Origin: a virus | Reading direction: 5' to 3' (one strand) | IMG/VR virus record: IMGVR_UViG_3300036799_000081 | Span: 1-46,313 of that record | Length of the DNA: 46,313 nucleotides | Part shown: in pieces, positions 214 to 41,120 of the stretch | Layout of the letters: each line of letters begins with the position of its first letter | Position numbering within the stretch: position 1 is the first letter of the stretch | Translations under genes and position numbers: made by a program | Notes under the pieces: generated by a model | What the model saw: the letters and a program-made list of their open reading frames with translations, nothing else | Told to the model about the DNA's origin: nothing | Databases searched by the model: none

Positions 214-1770
214 ATGACTAGCTTTTCTCCAGTTCGTCCGTTTGTCGGCACACAGCGTAACGAGCTTCGCAAACTGGCGCGCAACCATCCTGATTTCGAC
301 CGCTGGCGCGCTTTGAACGACCCCAAAAATGAAATGAAAAAAGCTGAAATCATTCGCGCCGTCAATGATTTAGGCCTAGTCGCGCAAGCGGAGGCGATCT
401 TAGGCGCGCCGCAAGCGTCGACGCTGGACAGTGAAGCGTTCGATGATCATTCCGATACGGCGCTCGATACGGCGCTGGACGAGGCGAGCATGGCGAAATC
501 GGACGAGGGCGATACGAACGAGCCGTCGCCAATCGATGTGGATATCGAAAGCGTTCTGGGCCCGGTTCGCCCCTTCCTGGCTGGCGGTTTGATCGCCAAC
601 ATCGAGGCGGCGCTCCGGCCGATTGTCGTCCAAGCGCACAAACCGGCGCAAACGATCATCGTGCAGTCGAACGCGCCGCTCAAGGCGGGCGAAGCCGCTC
701 ATGCGAGGCGAATAGGCGTTTCGACCATGTCTAAAGTGTTCATGGTCGGCGGCGCTAAGGGCAAGCGTCCCGTAGCGCTCTGGGATGATCCGCTCGCGCC
801 CCGTCCCGATGCGGGCTATGTGATGGACGGCGCGAGAATGTATCTCGGCGCGAGCGCTTTCGAGGCTGGCGAAACGGTCTGGTTCGCGGGACCGGCCGGG
901 GCTGGCAAGACAACGCTGGCGAAAGAGTACGCGGCGCTCACGGGACGAGGTTTCGTCCGGATCGGTTTTAATCACTCGACCGAAATGATTGATCTGATCG
1001 GCCAACCGGAGCCGCAACCGGCGAACGAGAACGGCGGCGTCAAGATGGTTTGGCGAGACGGCGTGTTCACGCGCGCCATTCGACGGGCCGGAACGATGAT
1101 CCTGTTGGACGAGCTAACCGGAGCGCCTCCCGGCACAAGCATGGCGTTCCAGACCATCTTGGACGAGCGCCAACTCACACTCCCGACCGGCGAAGTTGTC
1201 AATTTCGCCGACGGCGTTGTCGTCGCGATCGCCGACAACACGGCTGGTTATGGCGACGAAAGCGGCGTGTACGCCGGAACGCAAGCCGCCAACGGCGCGC
1301 TCGTGGATCGGGCCGTACGGCTTGTTCCGGTCGATTACATGAGCGCCTTGCTGGAGGCGGAAGCGCTTCAACGCAGGACCGGCGCGCCGCAAGCGGCTTG
1401 CATTCGTTTGGCGGATTTCGCGGTGAAAGTGCGCACCGTTCAGGCGCAGAACAAGAGCGACAGCCGACCGTTCTCCATTCGTCGCCTGATCGCGTTCGCC
1501 AACGCCACGCATCGCGATTTGATGACGTGCGACGAAGCTTGGACGATTACCGCGTATTCGCGGCTCCCCGAGTTGGATCGCGAGGAACTACGCCAAGCCG
1601 TCAACGCGCATTTCGACGGCAAGGCTTACGTTCGCGAGCTAAAGGGCGAAGCGGCTCCGATCGATCCCGTGCAAATGGATTTTAGCATGGGCGCAGCCTT
1701 CACGGACGCGATAGCGAGCGCCAGACAGGCGCAAGCCAAGCGCGCGTTCGGGGCGGTCGATCAGGCTTGA
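214..1770 (+). CDS. CobS-like MoxR-family AAA+ ATPase
   Basis: A 518-residue protein with a hydrophilic N-terminal part (about 1-200) and a C-terminal AAA+ domain. The Walker A motif GPAGAGKTT is near residues 226-234 and Walker B MILLDEL near 295-301. A sensor-type segment, IADNTAGYGDE, is followed by YAGTQAANGALVDR, which closely matches the CobS/MoxR signature (TANT, GLGD, GTQ, DR). In the family, CobS works with the VWA protein CobT as an ATP-driven complex in cobalt chelation; MoxR/VWA pairs also act as remodelling chaperones. The VWA partner lies immediately downstream. No CobN is present here, so a phage-specific remodelling role is at least as likely as corrin metabolism. The start has AAAGGAAC 7 nt upstream. 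Confidence 0.85.
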   Translation: MTSFSPVRPFVGTQRNELRKLARNHPDFDRWRALNDPKNEMKKAEIIRAVNDLGLVAQAEAILGAPQASTLDSEAFDDHSDTALDTALDEASMAKSDEGDTNEPSPIDVDIESVLGPVRPFLAGGLIANIEAALRPIVVQAHKPAQTIIVQSNAPLKAGEAAHARRIGVSTMSKVFMVGGAKGKRPVALWDDPLAPRPDAGYVMDGARMYLGASAFEAGETVWFAGPAGAGKTTLAKEYAALTGRGFVRIGFNHSTEMIDLIGQPEPQPANENGGVKMVWRDGVFTRAIRRAGTMILLDELTGAPPGTSMAFQTILDERQLTLPTGEVVNFADGVVVAIADNTAGYGDESGVYAGTQAANGALVDRAVRLVPVDYMSALLEAEALQRRTGAPQAACIRLADFAVKVRTVQAQNKSDSRPFSIRRLIAFANATHRDLMTCDEAWTITAYSRLPELDREELRQAVNAHFDGKAYVRELKGEAAPIDPVQMDFSMGAAFTDAIASARQAQAKRAFGAVDQA

Positions 1771-1795
1771 CTTATGGTCTAGTTTAATTTAACGC
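1767..1795 (+). promoter_or_regulatory. possible weak promoter/operator between the AAA+ and VWA genes
   Basis: TTGACT (1767-1772) is followed after 17 bp by a poor -10 (TAACGC, 1790-1795). The spacer holds GGTCTAG (1776-1782) at nearly the same place as in the promoter of the upstream gene. The poor -10 box makes promoter function uncertain; an operator role is also possible. Confidence 0.3.
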
Positions 1796-1839
1796 TGAGG
1801 GCGTTAGCTCAAAGGGGCTAACGCCCTCAGTTCGTTTTT
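1795..1839 (+). terminator. intrinsic terminator or attenuator between the two genes
   Basis: A perfect 14-bp stem, CTGAGGGCGTTAGC (1795-1808) with GCTAACGCCCTCAG (1817-1830), encloses an 8-nt loop and is followed by TTCGTTTTT. It sits between the AAA+ gene and its VWA partner, so it could lower expression of the second gene relative to the first. Confidence 0.85.
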
Positions 1840-1855
1840 GGAAAGGAAAAGTCAG

Positions 1856-3775
1856 ATGTTTAAATCCAGCGTTCTCGTTCCGGACGCGCTTGTCGCGATG
1901 GAAAGCAATCTCAAGGCGATTTTGGCGATGTTCAACGTGCGCGTCAAAAGCCTTCGTTGCGTGATCGACGGCAATAGCGGGACGGCCTCAATCCGGCATT
2001 ACAAGCAAAGCGACGGACTTATCGCCATGGTGTATTTTCCGGCGCTCAAATCGACGCAACGGCTCGCCAAGCAAGAGCTAGACCGCTGGACGGGATATTT
2101 TATCCACGAAATCTGTCACGGGATTTGGACCGACGAAGCTCAATGGATGATCGCTTGCCGTGAGGGCTTGCACGCGCTTGTCAATGGGATGGAGGACGTG
2201 CGCATCGAGCGCAAGATGATCCGGTCGGCGCGGGTCGACAACGCGAAAGAGCGCTTGGTTGAGCTACTTGATTTCATCGCCAACCGCGAGCCGCCGAAAG
2301 GCGCGAAGGCGTATGATCCAAACGACGCGCAATCCCTGCCTTGGACGCTCGCCATCATCGGGCGCGTCAAGCTCAACGGTTATTCGATCCAAGCGGGCCA
2401 TGACGCCTACGCCAAGTTGAGCCGATCGATGCGGAGGCTTGTCGATGGGGCGCTCGTCAAGCTGGACAAAGCGCAGAGCACGGCGGACGTTCTGGCGATA
2501 GCGCGCGATATTCAGGCGAGCTTGGCCAAAGGCGCGCCGCAAACCCGGCAAGCGCAACCGAAAGGCGAAGGCAAGGGCGAAAGCAATTCCAAGTCGCAAA
2601 AAGGCGAGCAAGGCGAGGGCGAAGGCGAGGGCGAAGGCGAAGGAAAGGGGCAAGGCGAGCCAGAAACGGCCGCTGGACGGAAAAAGGGGTCCGGCGAAGG
2701 GAATGATGCGTCCGAGGGCGAAAAGGGCGCTGGCGAGGCTCTCAAGGGCGAAGGCGAAGGCGAAGGCGCGAGCGCCAGCGACGACGGCGCGGGAAGGAAC
2801 GACAGCGAAAGCGCGCAAGGCGAAGGGGCGGACGCGGCCGGCGCGCCTAAGCCGTTCGACGCCCGCGACATGAAAGAGGTTGACTTAAATCCAGTGTCGG
2901 AGGCGGTGGCGAAGGCGAGCAAAGCGCTTTTGAAAAGCGGCGAGGCGATGGGCGAAAGCGTGATGTCCGAGATTTTGCGGGACGCGATCAAACAAGCCGG
3001 CGAGCCGTTGCCGGACAGCGAGCAAAGTCACCACGGGCGCGGCGGTTACGCCGGACTGGCGCAGGAGGCGCAGACGGCGAGCAACCTTCGCCAGCAATGC
3101 GTTCGGGTCTTGAAGCGCTCGGACAAGGACAGCTGGCGACGGCGGTTGAGCGCCGGGCGTCTCGACCGGCGCGCCTATGGGCGCTTGGCGGTCGGGGATC
3201 ACTCCAACTCGTTCGCCAAGCATATGTTTTCGCCAGGGTGGGAAACCGAGATCACAATCATTCTGGACGGCTCCGAGAGCATGAGCAGGGGCTACAAGCT
3301 TCAACGCGCGGCAAGCTTGGCGCTGGTGGTGGCGCAAGCGGCCGAGCAAGTCGGGGTCAAGTGCGAAATCGTGCGGTTCTTCCGCGATAAGGTGGTTTCG
3401 ATCAAGGCCCCGCGCGAACGTCTCGGCTCGCCAGCCGCGCAAGCGCGTCTAGGCCATGCGGCGCAATCGACCGGGGGAAGCACGCCGTTGACGCGATCGA
3501 TCGCGTTGTGCGCCAAGCGGCTCGCCATTCGAGCGCCGACGAAACGAAAAATGATCTTTGCGGTGACGGACGGGATTTGCGACTGCGGGCGCGAGGCGGT
3601 GCGGAAAGTGACGGAGCATTGCGACGCGGCGGGGGTGGAGATTGTCGGGTTGTCGATCGACAGTCCGGTGCAAGGCGCGTTCCGGTTCGAGAGCGCGATC
3701 AAGTCCGACGAGGACGTGGCGAAGGCCGGGCTTGGCGTTTTGGTCAAGGCGCTGGAAGCGAGGGCGGGGCGGTGA
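1856..3775 (+). CDS. CobT-like VWA protein with an HExxH motif
   Basis: A 639-residue protein. The N-terminal domain carries an HExxH zinc-protease-type motif (H84, E85, H88 in YFIHEICHG), then NGMEDVRIE at 110-118, which could supply a third ligand. A long acidic, Gly/Glu/Lys-rich linker (about 225-340, e.g. GEGEGEGEGEGKGQGE) leads to a C-terminal von Willebrand A domain with a complete MIDAS: DGSES at 471-475, the Thr in STGGSTPL and the Asp of AVTDG. The layout (N-domain, acidic linker, VWA) is that of CobT, and the AAA+ partner lies upstream. I chose the ATG at 1856 because GGAAAGGA lies 7 nt before it; an in-frame TTG at 1838 has no such site. Whether the HExxH is catalytic cannot be told from sequence. 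Confidence 0.85.
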   Translation: MFKSSVLVPDALVAMESNLKAILAMFNVRVKSLRCVIDGNSGTASIRHYKQSDGLIAMVYFPALKSTQRLAKQELDRWTGYFIHEICHGIWTDEAQWMIACREGLHALVNGMEDVRIERKMIRSARVDNAKERLVELLDFIANREPPKGAKAYDPNDAQSLPWTLAIIGRVKLNGYSIQAGHDAYAKLSRSMRRLVDGALVKLDKAQSTADVLAIARDIQASLAKGAPQTRQAQPKGEGKGESNSKSQKGEQGEGEGEGEGEGKGQGEPETAAGRKKGSGEGNDASEGEKGAGEALKGEGEGEGASASDDGAGRNDSESAQGEGADAAGAPKPFDARDMKEVDLNPVSEAVAKASKALLKSGEAMGESVMSEILRDAIKQAGEPLPDSEQSHHGRGGYAGLAQEAQTASNLRQQCVRVLKRSDKDSWRRRLSAGRLDRRAYGRLAVGDHSNSFAKHMFSPGWETEITIILDGSESMSRGYKLQRAASLALVVAQAAEQVGVKCEIVRFFRDKVVSIKAPRERLGSPAAQARLGHAAQSTGGSTPLTRSIALCAKRLAIRAPTKRKMIFAVTDGICDCGREAVRKVTEHCDAAGVEIVGLSIDSPVQGAFRFESAIKSDEDVAKAGLGVLVKALEARAGR

Positions 3776-5160: not shown

Positions 5161-5260
5161 GGCGCTCGCTCGTCCCGGTCCCCGGCATCCGCCCCCTGGC
5201 CCCCCTCGCGGCTCGGCTGGCGAACGCGGCCACCCCGAAAGACAAAAATTCCGATTTTTT

Positions 5261-5348
5261 TAAGTTTTCCATCCTAAATTTCCAAAATTTATAAGTTTTC
5301 CACGCTAAATTTCCAAAATTTGTAAGTTTTCCACGCTAAATAAGTTTT
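5261..5348. repeat. 31-bp iteron-like direct repeats, origin candidate
   Basis: A 31-bp unit beginning TAAGTTTTCCACGCTAAAT occurs at 5261-5291 (two mismatches) and 5292-5322, then partially at 5323-5340 and 5341-5348. Each full unit contains AAATTTCCAAAATTT, an imperfect palindrome. The block is strongly AT-rich in a GC-rich genome and lies next to a run of T residues. Tandem AT-rich iterons in an intergenic region are typical of replication origins or of phage control regions. Confidence 0.75.
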
Positions 5349-8143: not shown

Positions 8144-9656
8144 CCGGCCTCAAATTTTACGCTCGTCCGTGACCGGCCAGCAGCCGTCGGCCGGGACGCG
8201 CGCTCCCGGCGAATTGTGGACGACGTTCCCCGACAAGCAATTGGGGGTCATCGACGCCTCGAAGACCGCGCAGCCCCTGATCGCCGTCAGGTTCTTCTCG
8301 ACGACGGCGATTTACGCCGCCGGCGACTACGTCGTCCAGGCCGGCCAGCTCTACCGCTCGAAGAGCGCCGTCGCCGCCGGCGCGTTCAACCCGGCGCAAT
8401 GGACCCTGACCGGCGGCTCGGTGCTGGTCAGCGCCGCCGCGCCGTCCAACCCGACGCCCGGCGACATGTGGTTCGACGCCGCCGGCGGGCAGCTTTACGT
8501 CTATTACAACGACGGCGACACCAGCCAGTGGGTGGTCGCCGTCAACCAGAACATCGCCGGCGGCGTCTATCTGCCGCTCGGCGGCGGCGCGATGTCGGGC
8601 GACATCGTCAACGGCGCCGTCCCTGACCCCACGATCGCCAAGGGCATCGCCAACAAGCGTTACGTCGACGCCGTCTACGCGGCGCTTGCGCCCGGAGCGC
8701 TGGGCGACAACCGGCTTGTCAACGGCGACATGCGGATCGACCAAAGGAACAATGGCGCGGGCGGGATAGCGGGCGGCTATACGGTTGATCGGTGGGCGAT
8801 CGGAGGAAGCCTAGCGCCGGGGCACGGGACATGGGGGCGCAATATCGGGGCGTTCTCGGGACCGGTCGGATTTCCGTATTATCTTGGGTATTCGGTGAGT
8901 TCCGCCATCACTCCCGCAGCGGCGGACGCTCTTGTTTTTCAGCAACCTATTGAAGCCGACACGGTGAGCGATTTCGCTTGGGGGAGCGCGAGCGCACAGC
9001 CGGTGACGCTGTCGTTCTGGGCTCAGTCCACTCTGACCGGAACGTTTGGCGGATCGATCCGCAATAACGCCGGAACGCGGTCTTATCCGTTTACCTTCTC
9101 GCTTCCCGCCGCAATCACATGGACCAAGATTGTCGTCGTCATTCCCGGCGACACCGCCGGAGCGTGGGTGATGAGCAGCAATGCTGCATCGTTGCTTGTG
9201 GCGTTTGATCTTGGCACAGGTTCGACCGGTCGCGGTCCTGCCGGCGCATGGGCGTCGACCCAGTATCTCGGCGCAACCGGCTCAGTCAGTCTCGTCACAA
9301 CGCTCAATGCGTATTTCTTCGTGACCGGCGTCAAGCTCGAAATAGGCTCCGTGGCGACGCCGTTCAATCGCTACTCGTTGGCTAAGAGCATGGCCGATTG
9401 CGAGCGGTATTACAGTGCTCACGGCTCGGTCACGCTGGGTGGCGCGGGGGTGAATGGCAGTCCGGCTTACTCCCCGTTAGGTTTCCCCGTCACCATGAGA
9501 GCGACCCCGACCGTCGCCTTTACTCCAGCGGGTCTTACCGGATGCACCGGAGGAACAGCAGCGGCCATTAACGCTGACGGGTTTACCAGTATCTTTAATA
9601 TGGCGGCGACAGTTTGGGCTGCGAACGCAACCTGGACGGCGAGCGCGGAGCTTTGA
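8136..9656 (+). CDS. tail fibre protein, copy A (probable ATC start)
   Basis: 506 residues if it starts at ATC 8136, reading (M)TNRPQILRSSVTGQ; a GTG at 8169 would remove 11 residues and has no ribosome binding site. The N-terminal part (AGTRAPGELWTTFPDKQLGV, then DASKTAQPLIAVRFF) is typical of phage fibre N-termini that anchor to the particle. It contains GDMWFDAAGGQLYVYYNDG and then the LVNGDMRIDQRNNG phrase that opens a beta-sandwich receptor-binding region in many phage fibres. The next gene is paralogous from the NGDMRIDQRNN motif onward (about residue 190) and both end in SAEL. The gene follows the GIY-YIG nuclease directly. Confidence 0.8.
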   Translation: MTNRPQILRSSVTGQQPSAGTRAPGELWTTFPDKQLGVIDASKTAQPLIAVRFFSTTAIYAAGDYVVQAGQLYRSKSAVAAGAFNPAQWTLTGGSVLVSAAAPSNPTPGDMWFDAAGGQLYVYYNDGDTSQWVVAVNQNIAGGVYLPLGGGAMSGDIVNGAVPDPTIAKGIANKRYVDAVYAALAPGALGDNRLVNGDMRIDQRNNGAGGIAGGYTVDRWAIGGSLAPGHGTWGRNIGAFSGPVGFPYYLGYSVSSAITPAAADALVFQQPIEADTVSDFAWGSASAQPVTLSFWAQSTLTGTFGGSIRNNAGTRSYPFTFSLPAAITWTKIVVVIPGDTAGAWVMSSNAASLLVAFDLGTGSTGRGPAGAWASTQYLGATGSVSLVTTLNAYFFVTGVKLEIGSVATPFNRYSLAKSMADCERYYSAHGSVTLGGAGVNGSPAYSPLGFPVTMRATPTVAFTPAGLTGCTGGTAAAINADGFTSIFNMAATVWAANATWTASAEL

Positions 9657-9658
9657 TC

Positions 9659-10834
9659 ATGGCGATCGATTTCCCAAGCTCCCCCGCCAACGGCCAAAGC
9701 TTCACCGCAGGCAACGTCACCTGGATCTGGGACGGCGTGAAATGGGGCGTCCCGACCACCGCCGGATCGGGCCTTTATCTGCCCCTCACCGGGGGCGTGA
9801 TGACTGGCGACATCACCCTCAAAGGCGACCCGGCCTTAGCCTTGCATCCCGCCACCAAGCGTTACGCCGACAGCATGGTGAACGACAACCGGATCATCAA
9901 CGGCGACATGCGGATCGACCAGCGTAACAACGGAGTGGGTGGGACGGCGGCGGGTTACACGGTAGATCGGTGGCAATACGCCACGACGCAAGTCGGAAAA
10001 ATAACTTGGGCGCGTGCCGCAGCTTCCGTTTCTGTCGGCTTCCCTTATTGCCTTAGTTTTGGATCTTCATCGGCTTATGCTGCGGCGGCGACGGATACGT
10101 TCGCCGTTTTTCAGCCAATAGAAGCCGATATGGCCAGCGACTTCGCGTGGGGAACTCCCAATGCGCAGTCAGTAACGCTATCATTTTTGGTACAGTCGTC
10201 GTTAACAGGCACTTTTAGCGGGGCGATACGCAACGCTCCAACCGCTAATCGCTCTTACCTGTTTACATATTCAATTCCTGCAGCAAATGTTATGAGTAAA
10301 GTTGTTGTTGTGGTCCCCGGCGACACAGGTGGGGCATGGACGCTGAGCGGGAACGGGAGTGGAGTGTCAGTACTCTTTGATCTCGGTTCAGGCTCAAATC
10401 TTCGCACTACTGCTGGAGCGTGGACGAACGGCAATTATCTTTGCGCGACCGGCGCGGTTAGCGTCGTCGCCGCCAACGGCGCGACCTTTTATCTGACCGG
10501 CGTCAAGCTGGAGGTTGGCTCCGTCGCCACGCCCTACAATCGGCAGTCGCTAGCTAAGAGCATGGCTGATTGCCAGAGGTATTACAATAGCATGGCAGGT
10601 CAACCAGCAAGCGGTTATACTGGAATTGCCGCCCAGCAAGCTTATTTTTGTATGACTATCCCGACAATGAGAGCCGCTCCAACTGTGAACTTCACGAATA
10701 TAACTTATAATTATAATTCATCCAATCTTGTTGTTAACGGCAGCGGACCAGCGGTCTTTGGATTTAATTTTGGCATGCCAGTAATTGGGTCTGGGGCCGT
10801 AACTTTTACTGCACTGTTGAGCGCGGAGCTTTGA
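9659..10834 (+). CDS. tail fibre protein, copy B
   Basis: 391 residues. A short N-terminus (MAIDFPSSPANGQSFTAGNV, then TWIWDGVKWG) is a common fibre adhesin opening. YLPLTGGVMTGDITLKGDPA and HPATKRYADS match the fibre trimerisation or shaft repeat phrases. From NGDMRIDQRNNGVGG onward it parallels the upstream fibre, including VTLSF, KLEVGSVATPYNR and SLAKSMADCQRYY, and also ends in SAEL. The distal third is clearly more AT-rich than the rest, which suggests a recently exchanged receptor-binding tip. Confidence 0.8.
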   Translation: MAIDFPSSPANGQSFTAGNVTWIWDGVKWGVPTTAGSGLYLPLTGGVMTGDITLKGDPALALHPATKRYADSMVNDNRIINGDMRIDQRNNGVGGTAAGYTVDRWQYATTQVGKITWARAAASVSVGFPYCLSFGSSSAYAAAATDTFAVFQPIEADMASDFAWGTPNAQSVTLSFLVQSSLTGTFSGAIRNAPTANRSYLFTYSIPAANVMSKVVVVVPGDTGGAWTLSGNGSGVSVLFDLGSGSNLRTTAGAWTNGNYLCATGAVSVVAANGATFYLTGVKLEVGSVATPYNRQSLAKSMADCQRYYNSMAGQPASGYTGIAAQQAYFCMTIPTMRAAPTVNFTNITYNYNSSNLVVNGSGPAVFGFNFGMPVIGSGAVTFTALLSAEL

Positions 10835-24651: not shown

Positions 24652-25362
24652 TTGTGTGATCCAACCGTCTTAGCGATAGGCTCGACCGTCGCGGGTCTGG
24701 CTGGCAGCGCCGTGAGCGCCATCGGACAGTCCAACGCCGCCGACCAGCAGAAGAAAGCCTACGACGACTGGGCCGCGCAGCAGCACGCCAACCGCGTCGC
24801 CGCCGCCGCGAAAGACGAACAGGATCGCCAGCAGGCGAGCGCCGCCCAGCAGCAAGGGCTTCAGGATGTCGGCGCCGACAGCCAGAAGACCGCCCAGCAG
24901 CAGGAGCAGGACCGCCTGGGATCCTATCTGCAAGGCCAGAGTCCATCGTCCACGGAGAGCAACCCGAGCCCCGCGACGGCGGTGAGCGACGCGCGGCTAT
25001 CCGGCCAGCAGGGCGGCGACGCAACCTTCCAGAGCGATCTCTCGTCCAAGCTCGACCAGGCGAAAGCCGACTCGAAAAAGCGCATCGCGGCCTTGGCCGC
25101 CGTCGGCTCTTACGGCGGGAGCTTCGGCGGGCTCGACAACACCGTCAGCCAAGCGTTTCAGAAATCGGGCGGCGGCATCGACATGGCCAACGATTTCCGC
25201 AAGGGCGACCTGGCCGTCTACAACACCCAGCAAGCCGTCAGCCCGCTTCAGTACACCTACAGCCCGGGGCCGTTGCCCGCGCTGTCCGGCGCCGCGCTCC
25301 AGTCCGGCGCGCAGGGGCTCGGCCAGGGACTCGGCAAGATGCTCGCGGGCGGGGTGAAATAA
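24652..25362 (+). CDS. T7 gp14-like internal virion protein
   Basis: 236 residues from TTG, reading MCDPTVLAIGSTVAGLAGSA; the MC start followed by a small-residue hydrophobic helix resembles T7 gp14, which forms an outer-membrane pore during DNA ejection. The rest is Gln/Ala/Asp-rich and helical (SNAADQQKKAYDDWAAQQHA), then SYGGSFGGLDN and a Gly/Leu C-terminus. The ribosome binding site is weak (CAGGTG). A T8 run at 24614-24621 upstream has no stem and is probably not a terminator. The stop overlaps the next ATG by one base. Confidence 0.65.
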   Translation: MCDPTVLAIGSTVAGLAGSAVSAIGQSNAADQQKKAYDDWAAQQHANRVAAAAKDEQDRQQASAAQQQGLQDVGADSQKTAQQQEQDRLGSYLQGQSPSSTESNPSPATAVSDARLSGQQGGDATFQSDLSSKLDQAKADSKKRIAALAAVGSYGGSFGGLDNTVSQAFQKSGGGIDMANDFRKGDLAVYNTQQAVSPLQYTYSPGPLPALSGAALQSGAQGLGQGLGKMLAGGVK

Positions 25363-27374
25363 TGGCGACCATCGGCCTCAAGATCGCGCAGGACCCGAAC
25401 ACGTCGGACTCGCTTTCGCTCGCCGACACGCTGGCCAAGGGGATCTTCGGCGATCCCGAGGCGCAGATGAGGGCGAAGGCTCTCGCGTCTGAAGTCGGCG
25501 TCCGCATGGCGTCGCGCGACAAACTCATCGCCGACACCGGCTTCGTCAGCGCCAAGACCAAGACCGAGCAAGACGCCGAGGCTGCGAGACTGCGCGCCGG
25601 CCCGCTGGTCGGCGAGGCGGGAGCCGCCGCCGTCCCGGCGATCGTCGATGCTAACGACGCCCACGCGGTGGCGGTCCATAACGCCTTGGTGGAGCGAGAA
25701 CGGGCGTTGGGCCCGGTCCTCGTCCTTGGCGACAACCCAAACGCGGTCGCCGAGGGCGTCAACAAGAATTATGGCGGCGCGATCCTGAGCGCGGCGACGA
25801 GCAATCCCGCCATCGTCTCCGGCGACGCGCTGCGCATCGCCGGCGGGCTGGCCACCGGCTCCGCGCCGACCACGTCCACCGTCTGGAGCGCGGGCGACAC
25901 GTCCGGCGTCGACGCGGCGGCGCGGCAGAAAATCATCGAGGAAAGCGCGCCCAAGCCGTTCCAGCCCAAGGATGTCACCTATCGTGGCCAGCCGGGGATC
26001 GTGCGCTTGGACGCCGCCGGCAACCCGGTTTACACCGGCGCGGCGGGCACTCAGACAACGCCCGAGAAACCCAATCTTGTGGACCTGCCGGGAGGCGGCA
26101 AGGGGACGTTGATCTTCGACGCGCAGGGCAACCCCGCCGGCGTCCAAACGCTCCCCGGCGCGGAGAGCCGTCCGGAGAAGCAAGAGATCGTGGACCTGCC
26201 GAACGGCGGCAAGGGCGCGGTGATCCGCGACGCTCAGGGCAACATTCTGGGAACGATCCCCATCCCCGGCGCTGGCGCGGTCACGAAACTCGTCACCGTC
26301 GGCAAGGACACGGCGCAGCAGAACCCCGACGGCTCGCTCACGACCCCCACGGTGCAAGGCCGTCCGGCCGAGCCGCCGCCGTCGGTCTTCGGCGGGAACT
26401 CGACTACGGACGAGGCGCTGAACTTCACCACCGGGCTCGGCGTCAAGATGCAGGACACGACCTACAAGCCGACTTATCAGGAGGCCGCGACTTACGCGTC
26501 CGCCTACAACCACCTGTACGAGCAACCGAAGCCGCAGGAGTTCAAGCGAGCGGACGGCTCGACGGGCATCAATTGGGTTAATTCGCCGCCCCCCGCCGGC
26601 TCGCTCACTCCCGCTCAAGTTTTTGCGCGTCTCACCGGGCAGCCGACGCCTGTCCAGACGCCTCCGGTCCAGACGCCTCCGGTCCAGACGCCTCCGGTCC
26701 AGACGCCTCCGGTCCAGACGCCTCCGGTCCAGACGCCTCCGGTCGTCGAGGGACCGAGAGGGACTGTCGTCACTCAAGACTTGACCGGTCCAACGCCGAG
26801 AACGTCGCTCACCGCCGAGCAGGAGAAGGCGCAAGGCTATTTGACGATGGGCCACGAGGCGAACGCCATCCTGTCGAAACTGACCCCGAAGACCGTGCCG
26901 TCCGGCTGGGACATCGGCAAAGCGCAGTACGCCAGCTCGCCGGGGCTGACCAATTCGCTGGTCGGCTGGGCCACCAGCGACGCCGCCAAGAAATACAACG
27001 GCGCGGCGAAAGCCTTCGTCGAAGCCTACGCCCGTCCAGCGACCGGCGCGACGATCTCGCCCGCCGACTACCAGAACTTCTACGGCGCGATGATCCCGTT
27101 GCCGACCGACCCGCAGAGCGAATTCGACCGTAAGGCGAGATTGCGCGCCGATCTTGAACAGGTGTGGGCGAACGGCAGCGGCTTCCCCGACGAAGCCTCG
27201 CGCGACGCCTGGTTCGCCAAGCACGGGGTGGCGCGAACCAAGACCGACGCCGCGCCGCCCCGAACCGACGGCGGCGACGCCGCGCCGCCCAAAGCGCCGC
27301 AGACGATGAAAGACGCCTGGTCGCACATGTCCAAAGACGCCAAAGCCAGGGCGGTCCAGAGGTACGGCCAATGA
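25362..27374 (+). CDS. large internal virion / ejection protein (putative)
   Basis: 670 residues. The N-terminus (PNTSDSLSLADTLAKGIFGD) is helical; residues 200-310 carry two copies of a beta repeat (NLVDLPGGGKGTLIFDAQGN and EIVDLPNGGKGAVIRDAQGN). A Pro-rich spacer with six PVQTP units (about 430-461) separates this from a helical C-terminal half. No enzymatic motif is seen. Position among gp14-like and lysin genes and the elongated, repetitive make-up fit a protein packed in the head and injected with DNA. It overlaps the next gene by ATGA. Confidence 0.55.
   Translation: MATIGLKIAQDPNTSDSLSLADTLAKGIFGDPEAQMRAKALASEVGVRMASRDKLIADTGFVSAKTKTEQDAEAARLRAGPLVGEAGAAAVPAIVDANDAHAVAVHNALVERERALGPVLVLGDNPNAVAEGVNKNYGGAILSAATSNPAIVSGDALRIAGGLATGSAPTTSTVWSAGDTSGVDAAARQKIIEESAPKPFQPKDVTYRGQPGIVRLDAAGNPVYTGAAGTQTTPEKPNLVDLPGGGKGTLIFDAQGNPAGVQTLPGAESRPEKQEIVDLPNGGKGAVIRDAQGNILGTIPIPGAGAVTKLVTVGKDTAQQNPDGSLTTPTVQGRPAEPPPSVFGGNSTTDEALNFTTGLGVKMQDTTYKPTYQEAATYASAYNHLYEQPKPQEFKRADGSTGINWVNSPPPAGSLTPAQVFARLTGQPTPVQTPPVQTPPVQTPPVQTPPVQTPPVQTPPVVEGPRGTVVTQDLTGPTPRTSLTAEQEKAQGYLTMGHEANAILSKLTPKTVPSGWDIGKAQYASSPGLTNSLVGWATSDAAKKYNGAAKAFVEAYARPATGATISPADYQNFYGAMIPLPTDPQSEFDRKARLRADLEQVWANGSGFPDEASRDAWFAKHGVARTKTDAAPPRTDGGDAAPPKAPQTMKDAWSHMSKDAKARAVQRYGQ
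26652..26741 (+). repeat. 15-bp in-frame tandem repeat, six copies (PVQTP)
   Basis: GTCCAGACGCCTCCG is repeated six times without change, coding for a Val-Gln-Thr-Pro-Pro linker. Perfect conservation including third codon positions suggests recent slippage expansion, so the copy number may differ between close relatives. Confidence 0.9.
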
Positions 27375-35153: not shown

Positions 35154-35693
35154 TCAAAACGGACTGTCGGTGTTGTCTTCGGCGGCGATGGCCCCAAACG
35201 CCTTGGACGCGGAGATGCGCCCGTCGATGCGCGTTCCCTCTTTAATGAGCTGAAGATGATTGAGCCCGAAGCTCACCCCCTTCTTGCCCGAGTTCGACCA
35301 CGCGAACGGGGCGACGCTGGCCCGCACTTTCATGCCGGCGTAGACGAGGCTCGGGTCGATCACGTCCTGGACTTGCGCGTCCACGACGCCGGGACGCTGT
35401 TCGCTCCATGGATTGATGAAGGTCATCCCGTCGTCGTAGCCCGCATAATCTTTCTCGCCCGCGTCCTTAAACGGAAAAGCGAGGCTCTTGAGGTTAACGT
35501 CCGCGCCGAATTTGTCTTTCGCCGCCTTGAGGCAAGCGCTTTGCATCGCCTTGTATTCGGGGCTGGCCTGCGCTTTCTTGTCGAACAGCAAAGCGCAAGA
35601 GAAAACCGGCTTGGACCCCTCGGAGCGGGGACGCGGCGCGAACAGCACCGGGAACGAGAGCGTCGCTTCGGGGGTGATAAGATTGTTCGCCAT
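35154..35693 (-). CDS. single-stranded DNA-binding protein, DUF2815 (T7 gp2.5-like)
   Basis: 179 residues. It opens with LITPEATLSFPVLFAPRPRS and GSKPVFSCALLFDK, followed by helical SPEYKAMQSACLKAAKDKFG and KVRASVAPFAWSNSGKKGVS, the layout of DUF2815. The C-terminus is acidic with a final Phe (AAEDNTDSPF), as in gp2.5-type SSBs where this tail contacts replication partners. It would coat single-stranded DNA for replication and recombination, in line with the neighbouring DUF2800 nuclease and SNF2 helicase genes. AAAGGAAC precedes the ATG. Confidence 0.85.
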   Translation of the reverse strand: MANNLITPEATLSFPVLFAPRPRSEGSKPVFSCALLFDKKAQASPEYKAMQSACLKAAKDKFGADVNLKSLAFPFKDAGEKDYAGYDDGMTFINPWSEQRPGVVDAQVQDVIDPSLVYAGMKVRASVAPFAWSNSGKKGVSFGLNHLQLIKEGTRIDGRISASKAFGAIAAEDNTDSPF

Positions 35694-35783: not shown

Positions 35784-36929
35784 CTAGACTACATTGTCAA
35801 TGGGCGAAAACGCCTTTTTCGCGCTCATGTCGACGCCGTCCCGGGCGTCGTCGTCGCGGACCAGCGTCGTCCCGGAACTCTCTTTTGTAATCAACGGCAG
35901 CAGGGGTTTCATGTCCTTGAAATAAGCCTTCATCGCCCGCTCGGCTGCGGCGACCGACACCACTTTCACGACTGCGTGGAGCGGGACGCCGGCCACGTTC
36001 AAAGCGGCGAGGGCGTCGTTGTCGTCGGTCCATTTTCGCATTGCGCGCTTGGGGACGAGCTTCCAGTTCGGGATCGTTTGACCGTGATCGGCTCGCTGGC
36101 TGGCCTCCGCACGAACAAGATTGATCCATGCGCTGATAAGCTCTGCCTTGTCCAAAGCGTGAGACAGATCGTCGTTGGAGAGCCCGGAGACGATTGTCTG
36201 CGGATCAGGCGCGAACGCCGCGCGCGCCTCCATCTGCGCCATAGCCGCCAAAGTCCTGCACTCCCCGGCCCGAACGCACCACCGGCAATGTGAACCGGGG
36301 GTTTCAGTTTGGTCTTCATCGGCGATCCTCTGGAGGGCGGGCTCGAGAATTTCGGCTTCCCAGATTTTAAGCTCGCCCACGCCGAGCGTCACGCTTTGGA
36401 CGGGCGGTCCAGCCGTCCGAGGCTGGATGATGGTGAGCTTGACTTGAAGCGCGTCCGGCGTTTGCGCCAACCCGCCGAGCCCGTAGATCTTGAGCTGCGG
36501 ATTGTTCTCGACGCCGACGGCGACGCCCCGGCCGTACTTCAGATCGACGACTTCAAGCGTCTTGTTCGGGACGAGAGTGTAGGCGAGCGCGTCCGCCGTC
36601 CCGTAAAGCGGCTCCGGCAGATAGGTCAGCTTGACCCGCGTCTCGAAGGCGCACCAGGTCGCGCCCTTCCGCAGCGCCTCCACATATTTGACGTAATGCT
36701 CGACGTGATCGAGCATGTCGTCCGAGATCACGATGTCCTCGCCGTCCACGGAGACGACGGCCGGAGCCGGGAGCCCGTGGGCCAGATGCTCGGCGGCTTC
36801 GTGCGCCGCCGCGCCTTCGCGGGTGTACGGAGACGGCAGGCGTTTCTTGCCTCTGGCCAGGGTCACGCTCGCAGGGCATTTCAACCAGATCGACGCCGAC
36901 GAAGGCGAAGCGTCAGCGTGGGCGCTCAT
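35784..36929 (-). CDS. DUF2800 PD-(D/E)XK nuclease with Fe-S cysteines
   Basis: 381 residues. IWLKCPASVTLARG places a cysteine (C19) near the N-terminus, with GAAAHEAAEHL (H43/E44) after it. The nuclease core has GTADALAY (D113) and LEVVDLKYG (D129, K131). SHCRWCVRAGEC gives C215, C218 and C224, which with C19 fit the Cas4/AddB-type 4Fe-4S arrangement. DUF2800 proteins are Cas4-like exonucleases often paired with DUF2815 in phage replication blocks, as here. The ATG overlaps the stop of the preceding gene (TAATG). Confidence 0.87.
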   Translation of the reverse strand: MSAHADASPSSASIWLKCPASVTLARGKKRLPSPYTREGAAAHEAAEHLAHGLPAPAVVSVDGEDIVISDDMLDHVEHYVKYVEALRKGATWCAFETRVKLTYLPEPLYGTADALAYTLVPNKTLEVVDLKYGRGVAVGVENNPQLKIYGLGGLAQTPDALQVKLTIIQPRTAGPPVQSVTLGVGELKIWEAEILEPALQRIADEDQTETPGSHCRWCVRAGECRTLAAMAQMEARAAFAPDPQTIVSGLSNDDLSHALDKAELISAWINLVRAEASQRADHGQTIPNWKLVPKRAMRKWTDDNDALAALNVAGVPLHAVVKVVSVAAAERAMKAYFKDMKPLLPLITKESSGTTLVRDDDARDGVDMSAKKAFSPIDNVV

Positions 36930-37768: not shown

Positions 37769-37975
37769 TTAGGGGCTTTCCTTTTTCTCGTGGGCTTGTT
37801 CAAAAGCAACAACCGAACCCCGATGCGTTTTGACGCGCGGCAGAAGAGCCGTCATCATTTTATTTCCGCGCTCGGGGAAACCAAAACATTCAAAGAATTT
37901 AAGCAGGCCTCCATAATGGGAGCGCACGACGCGGTGCGCCGCCGCGCTGTCTCCCCCTTGGCGGTAATGCGGCAC
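37769..37975 (-). CDS. small hypothetical protein
   Basis: 68 residues from a GTG that shares a base with the SNF2 stop (TAGTG). It reads MPHYRQGGDSAAAHRVVRSH, then GGLLKFFECFGFPERGNKMM and a basic, polar end. It lies in the coupled minus-strand chain with only 2 bp to the next ATG. The protein is basic, and no family is recognised. Coupling and a clean frame support expression. Confidence 0.55.
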   Translation of the reverse strand: MPHYRQGGDSAAAHRVVRSHYGGLLKFFECFGFPERGNKMMTALLPRVKTHRGSVVAFEQAHEKKESP

Positions 37976-39318
37976 TAAAGTACGTCCTCTTTGTCGAACA
38001 GGTCGGCGAAATCCTGGGTCTTGCGCGCTTGGATTTCCTGCAAGCGTTCGTCATAGGTGCCTACGGCCGATAGGAAGCGGGCCAGCACCGCGTCGTGCTG
38101 GCCGATGCGGTGAATGCGGCACGCCGCTTGCCAGTTGAGCTTGGGCGAAAAGTGACTTTCCACGAACAGCGCGTCGCTGCACTGGAGCTTGCCGCCCGAC
38201 AGCGTGATCGCGGCGCCTCCGGCTTCGATCTGACCGACGAACACGCGGTTCGCGCCCGATAAGAAATCCCCGATGGCGTTGTCGCGGTCGCGCTGGCTGA
38301 CGCCGCCGTCCAGGCGCGAGACGCCGACATCGAGCAGGTTCTTGCAGAGATAATCGATAACGGGCGTGTGGATCGCCCAAACGACGATCTGCCTCACGCC
38401 GCCGTCCAGAAGATCATGGACGAGTTCAGCGGCTTGCTGCGCCTTGGCCATGCCCAATTCCGCGTAGCGCGTCGAGTTCGCCATCATCGCGGCGTGCTTA
38501 AGCACTTCGTCGTCCTTGATCCCGCTCTCGACCAGTTGCGACACGGTGGCGAAATATTCGGGATTGGCGATCTGGACCGGATGCGTCGTGAAGCGCAACG
38601 GCGGAAGATCCTTCATGACGTTGGCCTTCGTCTCGCGGAGGAAAAACCCGTCAAGGCGTCGGCGCAGCTCGGGGACGTTCTTCGAGCCGGTGATGACTTC
38701 GATCATGCGTTCGTTGACGCGCATCGTCTGTTTCTCGCAGTAGCGGTCCTCGAACGCCGTCTTGGTCATCGGCTTGCCGTTCTCCATAATCAGATCCGGG
38801 CGCAAGCTGGCGAGGATCGGCCAAAGCTCGCCCGCGTGGTTGGGGGCCGGCGTGGCGCTCATCGGGTGCGCGAGCCCGAGATTGTCGCGGAAGCCGGTCT
38901 TTCTGGACAAGACGGCCCTGGTGCGCGCGGCGCCGGAATTCTTGAGCGCGTGGCTCTCGTCCAGGATGGAGAGATCAAACGCCGGAACAGCCATCACCTG
39001 ATCGACTATCGCCATCGAGCGCGACAACAAGCCGTAGGTCACATAAAAAACGCCGTCGTTGCGAAACGCCGCCATGTCGCCCATGGTCTTGATGACTTTG
39101 AACGGCGGGTGATCGGGCCAGAACTTTTTCAGTTCGAGCCGCCACGAATAGGTCGCCGTCATCGGGCCGGTGATGAGAACCCGGCGCGCGTTGATCCTCT
39201 TCGCCACGTCGAGCGCGGTGCAGGACTTGCCCAAGCCGGGGTCGAACACGTTGTAGGTGGCGAGCTTGGACGCGGCGATCTTCGTCGCCGCCGCATTCTG
39301 GTAGGGGAAAAGTTTCAT
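37975..39318 (-). CDS. SNF2-family DEAD-like helicase
   Basis: 447 residues. LFPYQNAAATKIA (Q-type start), Walker A FDPGLGKSCTALD (25-37), the DExH box LSILDESHALKN (117-128) and SATPAPNH (motif III) form the first RecA domain. The second has VWAIHTPVIDYL, LSGANRVFVGQIEAGGAAIT and motif VI AACRIHRIGQHDAV with the Arg finger. This set is typical of compact phage SNF2 ATPases that move along DNA during replication or recombination. The start at 39318 overlaps the last mini-gene (ATGA). Confidence 0.9.
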   Translation of the reverse strand: MKLFPYQNAAATKIAASKLATYNVFDPGLGKSCTALDVAKRINARRVLITGPMTATYSWRLELKKFWPDHPPFKVIKTMGDMAAFRNDGVFYVTYGLLSRSMAIVDQVMAVPAFDLSILDESHALKNSGAARTRAVLSRKTGFRDNLGLAHPMSATPAPNHAGELWPILASLRPDLIMENGKPMTKTAFEDRYCEKQTMRVNERMIEVITGSKNVPELRRRLDGFFLRETKANVMKDLPPLRFTTHPVQIANPEYFATVSQLVESGIKDDEVLKHAAMMANSTRYAELGMAKAQQAAELVHDLLDGGVRQIVVWAIHTPVIDYLCKNLLDVGVSRLDGGVSQRDRDNAIGDFLSGANRVFVGQIEAGGAAITLSGGKLQCSDALFVESHFSPKLNWQAACRIHRIGQHDAVLARFLSAVGTYDERLQEIQARKTQDFADLFDKEDVL

Positions 39319-39488
39319 TGGGGCGCGTCCTTGAGGACGGCGCGGGCGATATGAGCTTCCCATCCATCTGGGTCGTTGTCGCGTATTTTTATCAGCGCCG
39401 CCTCCAGCCTCGCCACGCGGGCGCGCAGGGCGAAGATGGCGTCCCAAGCTGCGTTACGATCAGGCCAAGATGAAATGTTCTCGCTCAT
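39315..39488 (-). CDS. tandem mini-gene 4: coiled-coil protein
   Basis: 57 residues: MSENISSWPDRNAAWDAIFA, then the shared coil LRARVARLEAALIKIRDNDP and the shared tail ARAVLKDAPQ. It starts inside the stop of mini-gene 3 and stops inside the SNF2 start (both ATGA). The heptad pattern suggests a short coiled coil that could pair with itself or with the related proteins encoded upstream. Function unknown. Confidence 0.7.
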   Translation of the reverse strand: MSENISSWPDRNAAWDAIFALRARVARLEAALIKIRDNDPDGWEAHIARAVLKDAPQ

Positions 39489-39769
39489 TGCGGCGCGTCC
39501 TTGAGGGCGGCGCGGGCGGCGGCCATCGCATCGACATAGGTCGGACCCCGGTACGGGCCAACGTGGATCTGGTGTAGCGTCCAGACCGACTTGTAGGCAG
39601 GATCCTCATGGATCTCGTCGAGTCTGTTTACGAGGCCCGCCAGCGCCGCCTCCAGCTTCGCCGCGCGGGCGCGCAGGGCGGCTATCTCCTTGCCGTCCAC
39701 TCGCTGGATAAAATCCTCTCGCGCTTTTGCGACCCACTTTGCGTCGGCGGGTGATAATTTGTCGCTCAT
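39485..39769 (-). CDS. tandem mini-gene 3: coiled-coil protein, longest copy
   Basis: 94 residues: MSDKLSPADAKWVAKAREDF, then the shared coil EIAALRARAAKLEAALAG, an insertion not found in the other copies (EDPAYKSVWTLHQIHVGPYR), and the shared tail AAARAALKDAPQ. It is joined to both neighbours by ATGA overlaps. The insertion is rich in aromatic residues and His, so it may carry a copy-specific binding surface. Confidence 0.7.
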   Translation of the reverse strand: MSDKLSPADAKWVAKAREDFIQRVDGKEIAALRARAAKLEAALAGLVNRLDEIHEDPAYKSVWTLHQIHVGPYRGPTYVDAMAAARAALKDAPQ

Positions 39770-39945
39770 TGGGGCGTGTCCTTGAGGGCGGCGCGGGCGA
39801 GTGATGCTACCCACGCGCCTGGATCGATGTCGCGTATTTCCATCAGCGCCGCCTCCAGCTTCGCCACGCGGGCGCGAAGGGAAGCGAGCGCCCTATCGCG
39901 AACATCAATTCTTTCTTGCATCGCCGTTTCAAGCTCGTAGCTCAT
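39766..39945 (-). CDS. tandem mini-gene 2: coiled-coil protein
   Basis: 59 residues: MSYELETAMQERIDVRDRAL, the shared coil ASLRARVAKLEAALMEIRD, IDPGAWVASLARAALKD and the final TPQ. It closely resembles mini-gene 4, including the DxDPxxW-xxx-ARA stretch. ATGA overlaps lie on both sides. Function unknown. Confidence 0.7.
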   Translation of the reverse strand: MSYELETAMQERIDVRDRALASLRARVAKLEAALMEIRDIDPGAWVASLARAALKDTPQ

Positions 39946-40220
39946 TGGGGTTTGTCCTTGAGGGCGGCGCGGGCAGACCCAGCATCGTAGTGCCACCCCG
40001 CCATGCCTAGCTTTTCAGCGGCGGCTTCCAGCGCCGCCTCCAGCTTCGCCACGCGGGGGCGAAGGGCGGCAATCTCGGAACATGCCCACCGCACTTGTTG
40101 GGCGGCGGATTTTTCCCCCTGTTGGTCTAATCCGATAACCAAGCCTTCCAATTTCCATAGCTCTTGATCGCTCATCGGCTTGAAATCGAGCGGCCAAGAT
40201 GAAGTGTTCGCAGTCATCAT
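39942..40220 (-). CDS. tandem mini-gene 1: coiled-coil protein
   Basis: 92 residues: an N-terminus unlike the others in length (MMTANTSSWPLDFKPMSDQE, LWKLEGLVIGLDQQGEK), then the shared coil IAALRPRVAKLEAALEAAAE and the shared tail SARAALKDKPQ. The TSSWP phrase recurs near the start of mini-gene 4 (ISSWPD). It is the first of the array and ends with an ATGA overlap. A GGTCTAA word lies inside it at 40124-40130. Confidence 0.7.
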   Translation of the reverse strand: MMTANTSSWPLDFKPMSDQELWKLEGLVIGLDQQGEKSAAQQVRWACSEIAALRPRVAKLEAALEAAAEKLGMAGWHYDAGSARAALKDKPQ

Positions 40221-40247
40221 CGGGGCGCATCCTTGAGGGCGGCGGGC
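40221..40247 (-). repeat. degenerate fifth copy of the mini-gene tail
   Basis: The minus strand reads GCCCGCCGCCCTCAAGGATG then CGCCCCG directly before the ATG of mini-gene 1. It matches the end of each mini-gene (coding ARAALKDAPQ and the ATGA junction) except for a small deletion that breaks the frame. It indicates that a further copy was once present or that duplication breakpoints lie at the junction. Confidence 0.7.
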
Positions 40248-40248
40248 G

Positions 40249-40647
40249 TCACAACACAAGTCCTCTGGCGAGATCGCGATAGACGCTCGCCCATTCGTCG
40301 TAAGTCATGTTCTGGTAGCGAAGCTTGATCCGCCAGACGACGGTGCGCCGGTTGGACTGCGGATCGATCTTTCGCCGTCCGCTATCCTCGACCGGATGCC
40401 ACGGCGTCGCGCCAAGAACGCGCGAACGCCACAACAGGCCGATGCGGGCGCGATGCAGCGACGAGAGCTTGTCGAATACAGACATAAGCTGGACTTGATC
40501 CCACATCTCCCAATCCGCCAAGCCGAACCGGCTCTGGCGCAAAGCCTGATAGACCCAACGCTCTTGCCGCAGGACGCGCAGCTTCGACAGGGCGCGGGCG
40601 GACGCGATGCTGGTGGGGCTATGGCTCTGCGACGGGGGGTCGATCAT
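40249..40647 (-). CDS. hypothetical protein
   Basis: 132 residues, basic. It starts MIDPPSQSHSPTSIASARAL and continues with a helical region (LSKLRVLRQERWVYQALRQS; LSSLHRARIGLLWRSRVLGA), then SNRRTVVWRIKLRYQNMTYD and EWASVYRDLARGLVL. The many Arg, Trp and Tyr residues suggest nucleic-acid contact, but no family is recognised. The ATG overlaps the stop of the RuvC-like gene (ATGA), so the two are coupled and may act together. Confidence 0.65.
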   Translation of the reverse strand: MIDPPSQSHSPTSIASARALSKLRVLRQERWVYQALRQSRFGLADWEMWDQVQLMSVFDKLSSLHRARIGLLWRSRVLGATPWHPVEDSGRRKIDPQSNRRTVVWRIKLRYQNMTYDEWASVYRDLARGLVL

Positions 40648-41120
40648 CGCCCCGTCTCCCTTAGCCAAAGCGCCATCAACAAAGCCTCGCCGCGCCCGGC
40701 GTCCTTGACCAAGCGCAGATTGACGTTGGGGAACAGCTTGATCGCCAGCGCGCGGGCCTTCTCTTTGTCGCCGTCCAGCCGGAAGTGCTTCTTCCAGACG
40801 CCGGGGGCGACATCGACGATCTTGACGCCGGACGCCGACAAGACGCCCATGATGATCCCGTAGCCCATGCCGAACCGGAACGAACTGGACACGCCCTGGC
40901 CGGGAAAAGCATTGACGCGCTCGACCACCGCATGGCTCGGGTTGCGCTCGCTGACGGCGTGAGCGAAGGCTCGGCCGTCGACCATCTTGTCGGCGACAGG
41001 CATGTGAAAGGCGCTCGCCGCATCGACGCCGCCGTCCAGATCCCACGGGATCACGGCGAAAGCCGCGCTCACGCTGCCGGGGTCCACCCCCATCACCGCC
41101 ATCCGACTGAAAATCGTCAT
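40644..41120 (-). CDS. RuvC-like Holliday junction resolvase
   Basis: 158 residues with the RNase H-fold resolvase pattern: MGVDPGSVSAAFAVI (D13), SHAVVERVNAFPGQG (E67) and LVKDAGRGEALLMALW (D140, E145), the usual acidic set. It would cut branched DNA before or during packaging. It is the first gene of the minus-strand replication operon. The promoter -10 box ends 7 nt before the ATG at 41120, so the transcript seems leaderless; an internal ATG at residue 7 (MAVMGVDPG) or 10 is an alternative start. Confidence 0.85.
   Translation of the reverse strand: MTIFSRMAVMGVDPGSVSAAFAVIPWDLDGGVDAASAFHMPVADKMVDGRAFAHAVSERNPSHAVVERVNAFPGQGVSSSFRFGMGYGIIMGVLSASGVKIVDVAPGVWKKHFRLDGDKEKARALAIKLFPNVNLRLVKDAGRGEALLMALWLRETGR

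Follow-up and report, generated by a model that had tools for sequence, protein, structure and literature searches.

The question raised by this locus is how a phage comes to carry several small genes in one operon that have the same DNA word at two places and differ almost everywhere else. The window (the whole stretch of DNA analysed, 46,313 bases) is an IMG/VR virus record and is known from metagenomic sequence alone, as one contig. The phage is tailed, and its genes include terminase, portal, major head protein and an A-type DNA polymerase. Four genes, here named A to D, follow each other on the minus strand from 40220 to 39315 (92, 59, 94 and 57 aa). In the operon, the RuvC-like resolvase gene comes first, then g132, the array and the SNF2 helicase gene; the genes for exonuclease and annealing protein lie further on. 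Stop and start codons overlap as ATGA at each junction from A to D, and likewise between D and the helicase gene. The genes of this region are:

35154..35693, minus strand: Gp2.5-like ssDNA-binding and annealing protein (phrog_112)
35784..36929, minus strand: exonuclease (phrog_69)
37975..39318, minus strand: SNF2-type helicase, to which the ATGA overlap couples gene D
39315..39488, minus strand: gene D, 57 aa, an apparent mosaic with A-like start and B-like coil, linker and tail
39485..39769, minus strand: gene C, 94 aa, with the longest linker (41 aa)
39766..39945, minus strand: gene B, 59 aa
39942..40220, minus strand: gene A, 92 aa, with 18 start-proximal nt in common with D, and coil and tail in common with all
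40249..40647, minus strand: g132, a protein without assigned role
40644..41120, minus strand: RuvC-like Holliday junction resolvase

Reading frames and alignment confirm what an earlier note on this DNA had described, namely four minus-strand genes with a common coil (LRARVAKLEAAL) and a common tail (ARAALKDxPQ), both with small changes from gene to gene. The coil reads LRPRVAKLEAAL in A, LRARVAKLEAAL in B, LRARAAKLEAAL in C and LRARVARLEAAL in D, and the tail consensus is ARA[A/V]LKDxPQ. Each gene appears to be built of a variable N part, the coil word, a variable linker and the tail word, whose stop codon overlaps the next ATG, and the array is a string of overlapping genes that are probably coupled in translation. 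An AlphaFold2 model of gene B (mean pLDDT 86) predicts helix 3-40 and helix 45-55. The repeated junction word with its ATGA, also pointed out earlier, was captured by a 33-nt pattern that is present in 5 copies in the window (at most 3 mismatches), with 0 expected from shuffles. The frame-broken fifth tail that had been seen ahead of the array is the copy at 40217-40249. It overlaps the g132 stop, stands directly upstream of the gene A ATG and is untranslated as tail. The words lie at the following positions:

39315..39347, minus strand: tail/junction word, end of D and start of helicase
39392..39440, minus strand: coil word of gene D
39485..39517, minus strand: tail/junction word, end of C and start of D
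39640..39688, minus strand: coil word of gene C
39766..39798, minus strand: tail/junction word, end of B and start of C
39843..39891, minus strand: coil word of gene B
39942..39974, minus strand: tail/junction word, end of A and start of B
40028..40076, minus strand: coil word of gene A, containing CTGGAGGCGGCGCTG
40217..40249, minus strand: orphan fifth tail word, with 3 mismatches to the junction pattern and carrying AAGGA

Coil and tail were also claimed to be conserved as DNA, and the codons bear this out. Where the residues of A to D agree, codons are identical in 59/63 cases in the coil and in 49/52 in the tail, compared to 23.1 and 22.8 expected from phage codon usage. The maxima reached in 20,000 simulations were 47 and 42, respectively. 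Neither chance nor plain protein conservation explains this codon identity. Selection at the mRNA level, acting on the start of the next gene, could account for part of it. N-termini and linkers, which the note had called variable, are indeed mostly unalignable, with two exceptions. Genes A and D are identical in 17/18 nt near their starts (GAACAYTTCATCTTGGCC; 0/2000 shuffles as good), and B and D share their linker within 116 nt at 84% that span coil, linker and tail. Since gene D combines an A-like start with a B-like C-terminal half, it is, as judged from the alignments, a mosaic.

The array is an accessory insertion amid conserved replication and recombination genes, because RuvC is directly followed by the helicase gene, without an array between them, in Microcystis phage Mae-Yong1326-1, phage MW202898 and IMGVR_UViG_3300050821_002711. 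The last of these carries a 63% identical g132 homologue at another genome position, without array genes. Judged by exonuclease (44%) and annealing protein (55%), L050 is a nearer relative, and a single member of the family lies there between the helicase and exonuclease genes. A helicase search of IMG/VR and searches of the other collections brought up no close relative of the window phage. For this reason shuffling within the window array is deduced solely from the mosaic structure of gene D.

The window-type tail (KDxPQ), by which the earlier note had expected related phages to be recognised, gave no match elsewhere with DNA patterns in genomes and viral contigs, whereas other phages, with RIEALEAALREI and IARAALAPEQDK or ARAALDKDTGK tails, were retrieved when the pattern for coil and tail was relaxed. 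All of these have an AAATGA junction and several carry the genes in tandem. A profile built on the four window proteins yielded no relative that could be confirmed; the probable reason is that its first sequence diverges most. Profile and degenerate protein searches of IMG/VR yielded 111 relatives, 80 of which were retained; many of the relatives form tandem arrays. Records with this anatomy number >20 and come from separate samples. Overlaps and N/C combinations were compared in 152 coil-tail genes from 82 loci. A stop/start overlap ends 128 of the 152 genes (84%), with a length of 4 nt in 78, 8 nt in 37 and 1 nt in 13; of 255 long ORFs in these loci, 80 have the 4-nt overlap at their end. 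Counted per whole record, tail words reach up to 9 in one genome and are absent from the reversed control. The longest such array seen, in L052 (record G018, ~17.9-22.9 kb), holds nine tail words in 5 kb, and its genes include AP2-like and zinc-ribbon proteins.

Coil plus IARAAL, searched in 85,000 bacterial genomes, gave 10 matches, none of which reads as a family member. Isolated phages gave one weak match only, plasmids none, and 297 genomes from the order of a Rhizobiales MAG no family member; the query used on these genomes recovered 5/5 known viral records and therefore works on viral records. Pfam, PHROG and NCBIfam have no model describing the coiled-coil family, and a PDB sequence search gave chance-level matches only. 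The anti-defence or antirepressor role that had been mentioned as a parallel found no support here; no family model matches. Arrays in other phages have ERF and YqaJ recombination genes among their neighbours. GcrA genes lie beside some arrays, which suggests Alphaproteobacteria as hosts of these GcrA-bearing phages.

Copy number and order, which the note had proposed to compare among relatives, differ between near-identical phages at coils and at a tail junction. In four allelic pairs, mostly of metagenomic assemblies, where short repeats can yield chimeras, the two members differ by an inserted, deleted or replaced segment that reaches from one coil to the next. L131 carries N1-C1 followed by N2-C2, and L121 carries a single gene N1-C2, is 218 nt shorter and has the join inside the coil. 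On the side that leads to the first gene's coil, these two are 96.0% identical over 3465 nt; on the other side, starting at the second gene's coil, identity is 97.2% over 1517 nt. L079 and L107 are arranged likewise; their breakpoints are at the edges of the coils, and identity is 84% on one side and 91-97% on the other. Between L112 and L115 the segment from coil 1 to coil 2 is replaced within flanks that are 94-97% identical, and L110 has an additional C3-N3 segment between coils compared to L131. In all four pairs, the exchanged modules are bordered by short conserved DNA and the breakpoints lie at coil edges.

When the genes of the 82 loci are split at the coil, a shared N part (at least 80% DNA identity) is combined with unlike C parts in 8 gene pairs, and a shared C part with unlike N parts in 24; not all of these are independent events. 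One freshwater group combines C2 with N1, N2 and N3, N1 with C1 and C2, and N2 with C2 and C3. These combinations are replicated: L132 equals L131 at 99.9%, N1-C2 occurs again in L126 and N3-C2 in several samples, and C2 joined to the three different N parts is found in several samples that are independent. Of 136 copies of the coil word CTGGAGGCGGCGCTG (at most 1 mismatch), 118 lie inside coil genes, and the word is nearly fixed across contigs. By a count of match ends over all gene pairs, the coil is not sharply favoured (10.9% of ends vs. 6.6% of length); this count is too blunt to place crossovers, because the conserved coil itself extends matches. The idea that the junction acts as a recombination unit needs correction: related arrays of near-identical phages do gain, lose and shuffle coupled genes, but on these comparisons the coil is the better-supported recombination site and the tail/junction is secondary.

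At this second site, a fifth pair (L090/L078) has a ~0.9 kb difference at the tail junction. The tail word also ends coil-less genes of AP2-like, XRE-type HTH and zinc-ribbon types. In four proteins with the tail word, the family match ends short of the tail:

AP2-like protein: phrog_99 match at 6-64 of 74 aa
XRE-type HTH protein: HTH match at 19-43 of 62 aa
DnaJ-type zinc protein: family match at 8-44 of 66 aa
phrog_8770 protein: match at 1-63 of 72 aa

Tail codons are nearly fixed over 17 contigs that were retrieved without use of tail DNA (for example, GCA in 17/17 despite a usage of 0.14).

We propose, with a probability of about 0.7, that the locus holds early accessory coiled-coil genes in a translationally coupled array, in which homologous recombination, chiefly at the coil and secondarily at the tail/junction, gains, loses and hybridises genes. 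As every copy has the same coding word for its coil, a crossover between two coils, in neighbouring or incoming copies, would fuse the N part of one gene in frame with the C part of the other, and would add or remove one junction and one gene. A crossover at the tail/junction would add or remove genes there or tag unrelated genes, and the next gene would keep its ATGA start. The exchange might be carried out by the phage exonuclease, annealing protein and resolvase, all of which are encoded near the array in the window phage, and by ERF and YqaJ in other array phages. Coil-bounded indels and replacements, N/C chimeras and tails on unrelated genes are documented by sequence comparison in relatives, that is, in other phages whose words are related, not identical, to those of the window. 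The window phage itself displays the DNA words and the apparent mosaic gene D, from which we infer recombination at its coil. The proteins made may be small coiled-coil adaptors that form oligomers and contact host proteins through their variable ends, a role also proposed for lambda Ea22. This oligomeric, host-directed role is argued by analogy and is the weakest step of the model.

A different reading, less likely but to be taken seriously, is that the tail repeat acts chiefly at the RNA level, as a start element in which a portable ribosome-binding site and the overlap together couple translation of the next gene. Its repetition would then reflect selection for expression, and recombination would be incidental. 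The tail of every lineage has a Shine-Dalgarno-like purine-rich stretch shortly before the ATG (AAGGA in the window, GGAG/AGGA or GAGGGG elsewhere), the untranslated orphan tail before gene A sits where a start region is expected, and the overlap ends 84% of the genes. However, the predicted pairing is ordinary, as 25-34% of ATGA sites pair equally well in high-GC lineages, and a strong Shine-Dalgarno sequence as the sole reason for the tail is therefore not supported. A start element would also leave unexplained the DNA-conserved coil, which lies far from the starts, and the coil-bounded indels. Plain tandem duplication and divergence, with purifying selection on coil and tail and with modules left unshuffled, would agree with tandem paralogues of one family in one operon and with the likeness of B and D over coil, linker and tail. 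We disfavour it as improbable: coil and tail have identical codons while N parts and linkers cannot be aligned, A-like and B-like parts meet in gene D, and one C part is found with different N parts in different phages.

Unrelated genes have the conserved word at their 3' end, which recalls the position of an attC site, and an integron-like or other site-specific cassette system would need a dedicated recombinase acting on the tail. We consider this very improbable, since no DNA hairpin in the tail words was better than in shuffles (z +0.75 to +1.07), no integrase is present among 17 window genes scanned, and the coil serves as crossover site as well. Repeats in metagenomic contigs are prone to mis-joins and the record is one such contig, but an assembly artefact is hardly credible, because four intact, diverged reading frames form a coherent operon, and independent samples have the same anatomy.

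If recombination at coil and tail is accepted, a wider claim can be made, which we hold tentatively and would sooner doubt than affirm: that this is a widespread, enzyme-free way of protein shuffling in environmental phages, in which the coil word, conserved at the codon level between otherwise diverged phages, continually yields N/C hybrids in the coupled array and the junction word admits unrelated small genes. In this case, the phage would keep changing its set of small host-directed proteins. Phage mosaicism is usually visible long after the event, when the border sequence is gone. The arrays still contain border words, which lie within the genes; near-identical genomes reveal recent events, and the way the genes are built keeps the join in frame. 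The arrays would offer a testable model for the making and swapping of small early phage genes, and many unnamed coiled-coil phage proteins without Pfam, PHROG or NCBIfam model would be united as one family. We found no description of a coding coil word as in-frame crossover point in a tandem array in the searchable literature, and nothing on tandem coiled-coil phage arrays.

Boundary sequences, start-associated sequences (SAS) and Ea22 each match part of the features of the array. Ead/Ea22-like proteins are characterised by oligomer formation and favour lysogeny. Lambda Ea22 is the nearest architectural analogue, as the array genes, by alignment and predicted model, also have a variable N part, a central coiled coil and a variable C part. 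The excerpts of PMC10834534 and PMC7093339 describe Ea22 as an early accessory gene near recombination genes with this architecture, suggest that its C-terminal parts act on host targets, and mention no tandem array. However, Ea22 is encoded by one gene of larger size (182 aa in lambda) and its C-terminal domain is folded, while the predicted model of gene B has no such domain. Ea22 family models were absent from the Pfam matches of window genes (E <=1) and of 11 relatives (E <=0.1). For lambdoid phages, boundary sequences have been proposed, short conserved DNA at module borders where exchange would take place by homologous recombination (summarised in PMC3029335). In contrast, the border word of the array occurs in tandem within one array and also within each gene, as the coil, where it would join protein halves in frame. 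In cluster K mycobacteriophages, the SAS is a word of 13 bp that directly precedes the start codons of small non-structural genes and overlaps with their ribosome-binding site (PMC3203893). The array word stands before five starts and carries AAGGA, with pairing energy that is not unusual, but it is the coding 3' end of the preceding gene and has the stop/start overlap. With integron gene cassettes the array shares a conserved 3' word on different genes; it differs from them in the tail without hairpin, in the lack of an integrase among the 17 window genes and in crossovers that also fall in the coding coil.

Several other features of the window were observed. The contig starts (1-108) with an 8-nt unit, CGTCGAGC, in 13.5 perfect copies; this may be a terminal repeat, a coding repeat or an assembly edge effect. 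An AAA ATPase gene, with best match to phrog_249 ('porphyrin biosynthesis', CobS-like), and a large ORF after it, with phrog_1576 and peptidase-like matches, occupy 214-3775, and both have homologues in IMG/VR contig G001. Three AT-rich 31-nt direct repeats at 5245-5341, in a poorly coding stretch of an otherwise GC-rich genome, are possible regulatory or replication iterons. A neighbouring gene pair has blocks of 81-83% identity at both ends (8705-8795 / 9883-9973 and 9322-9414 / 10494-10586) and is probably a duplicated, tail-associated pair with a variable middle. Within the ORF 25362-27374, a 15-nt unit is repeated perfectly six times at 26652-26744.
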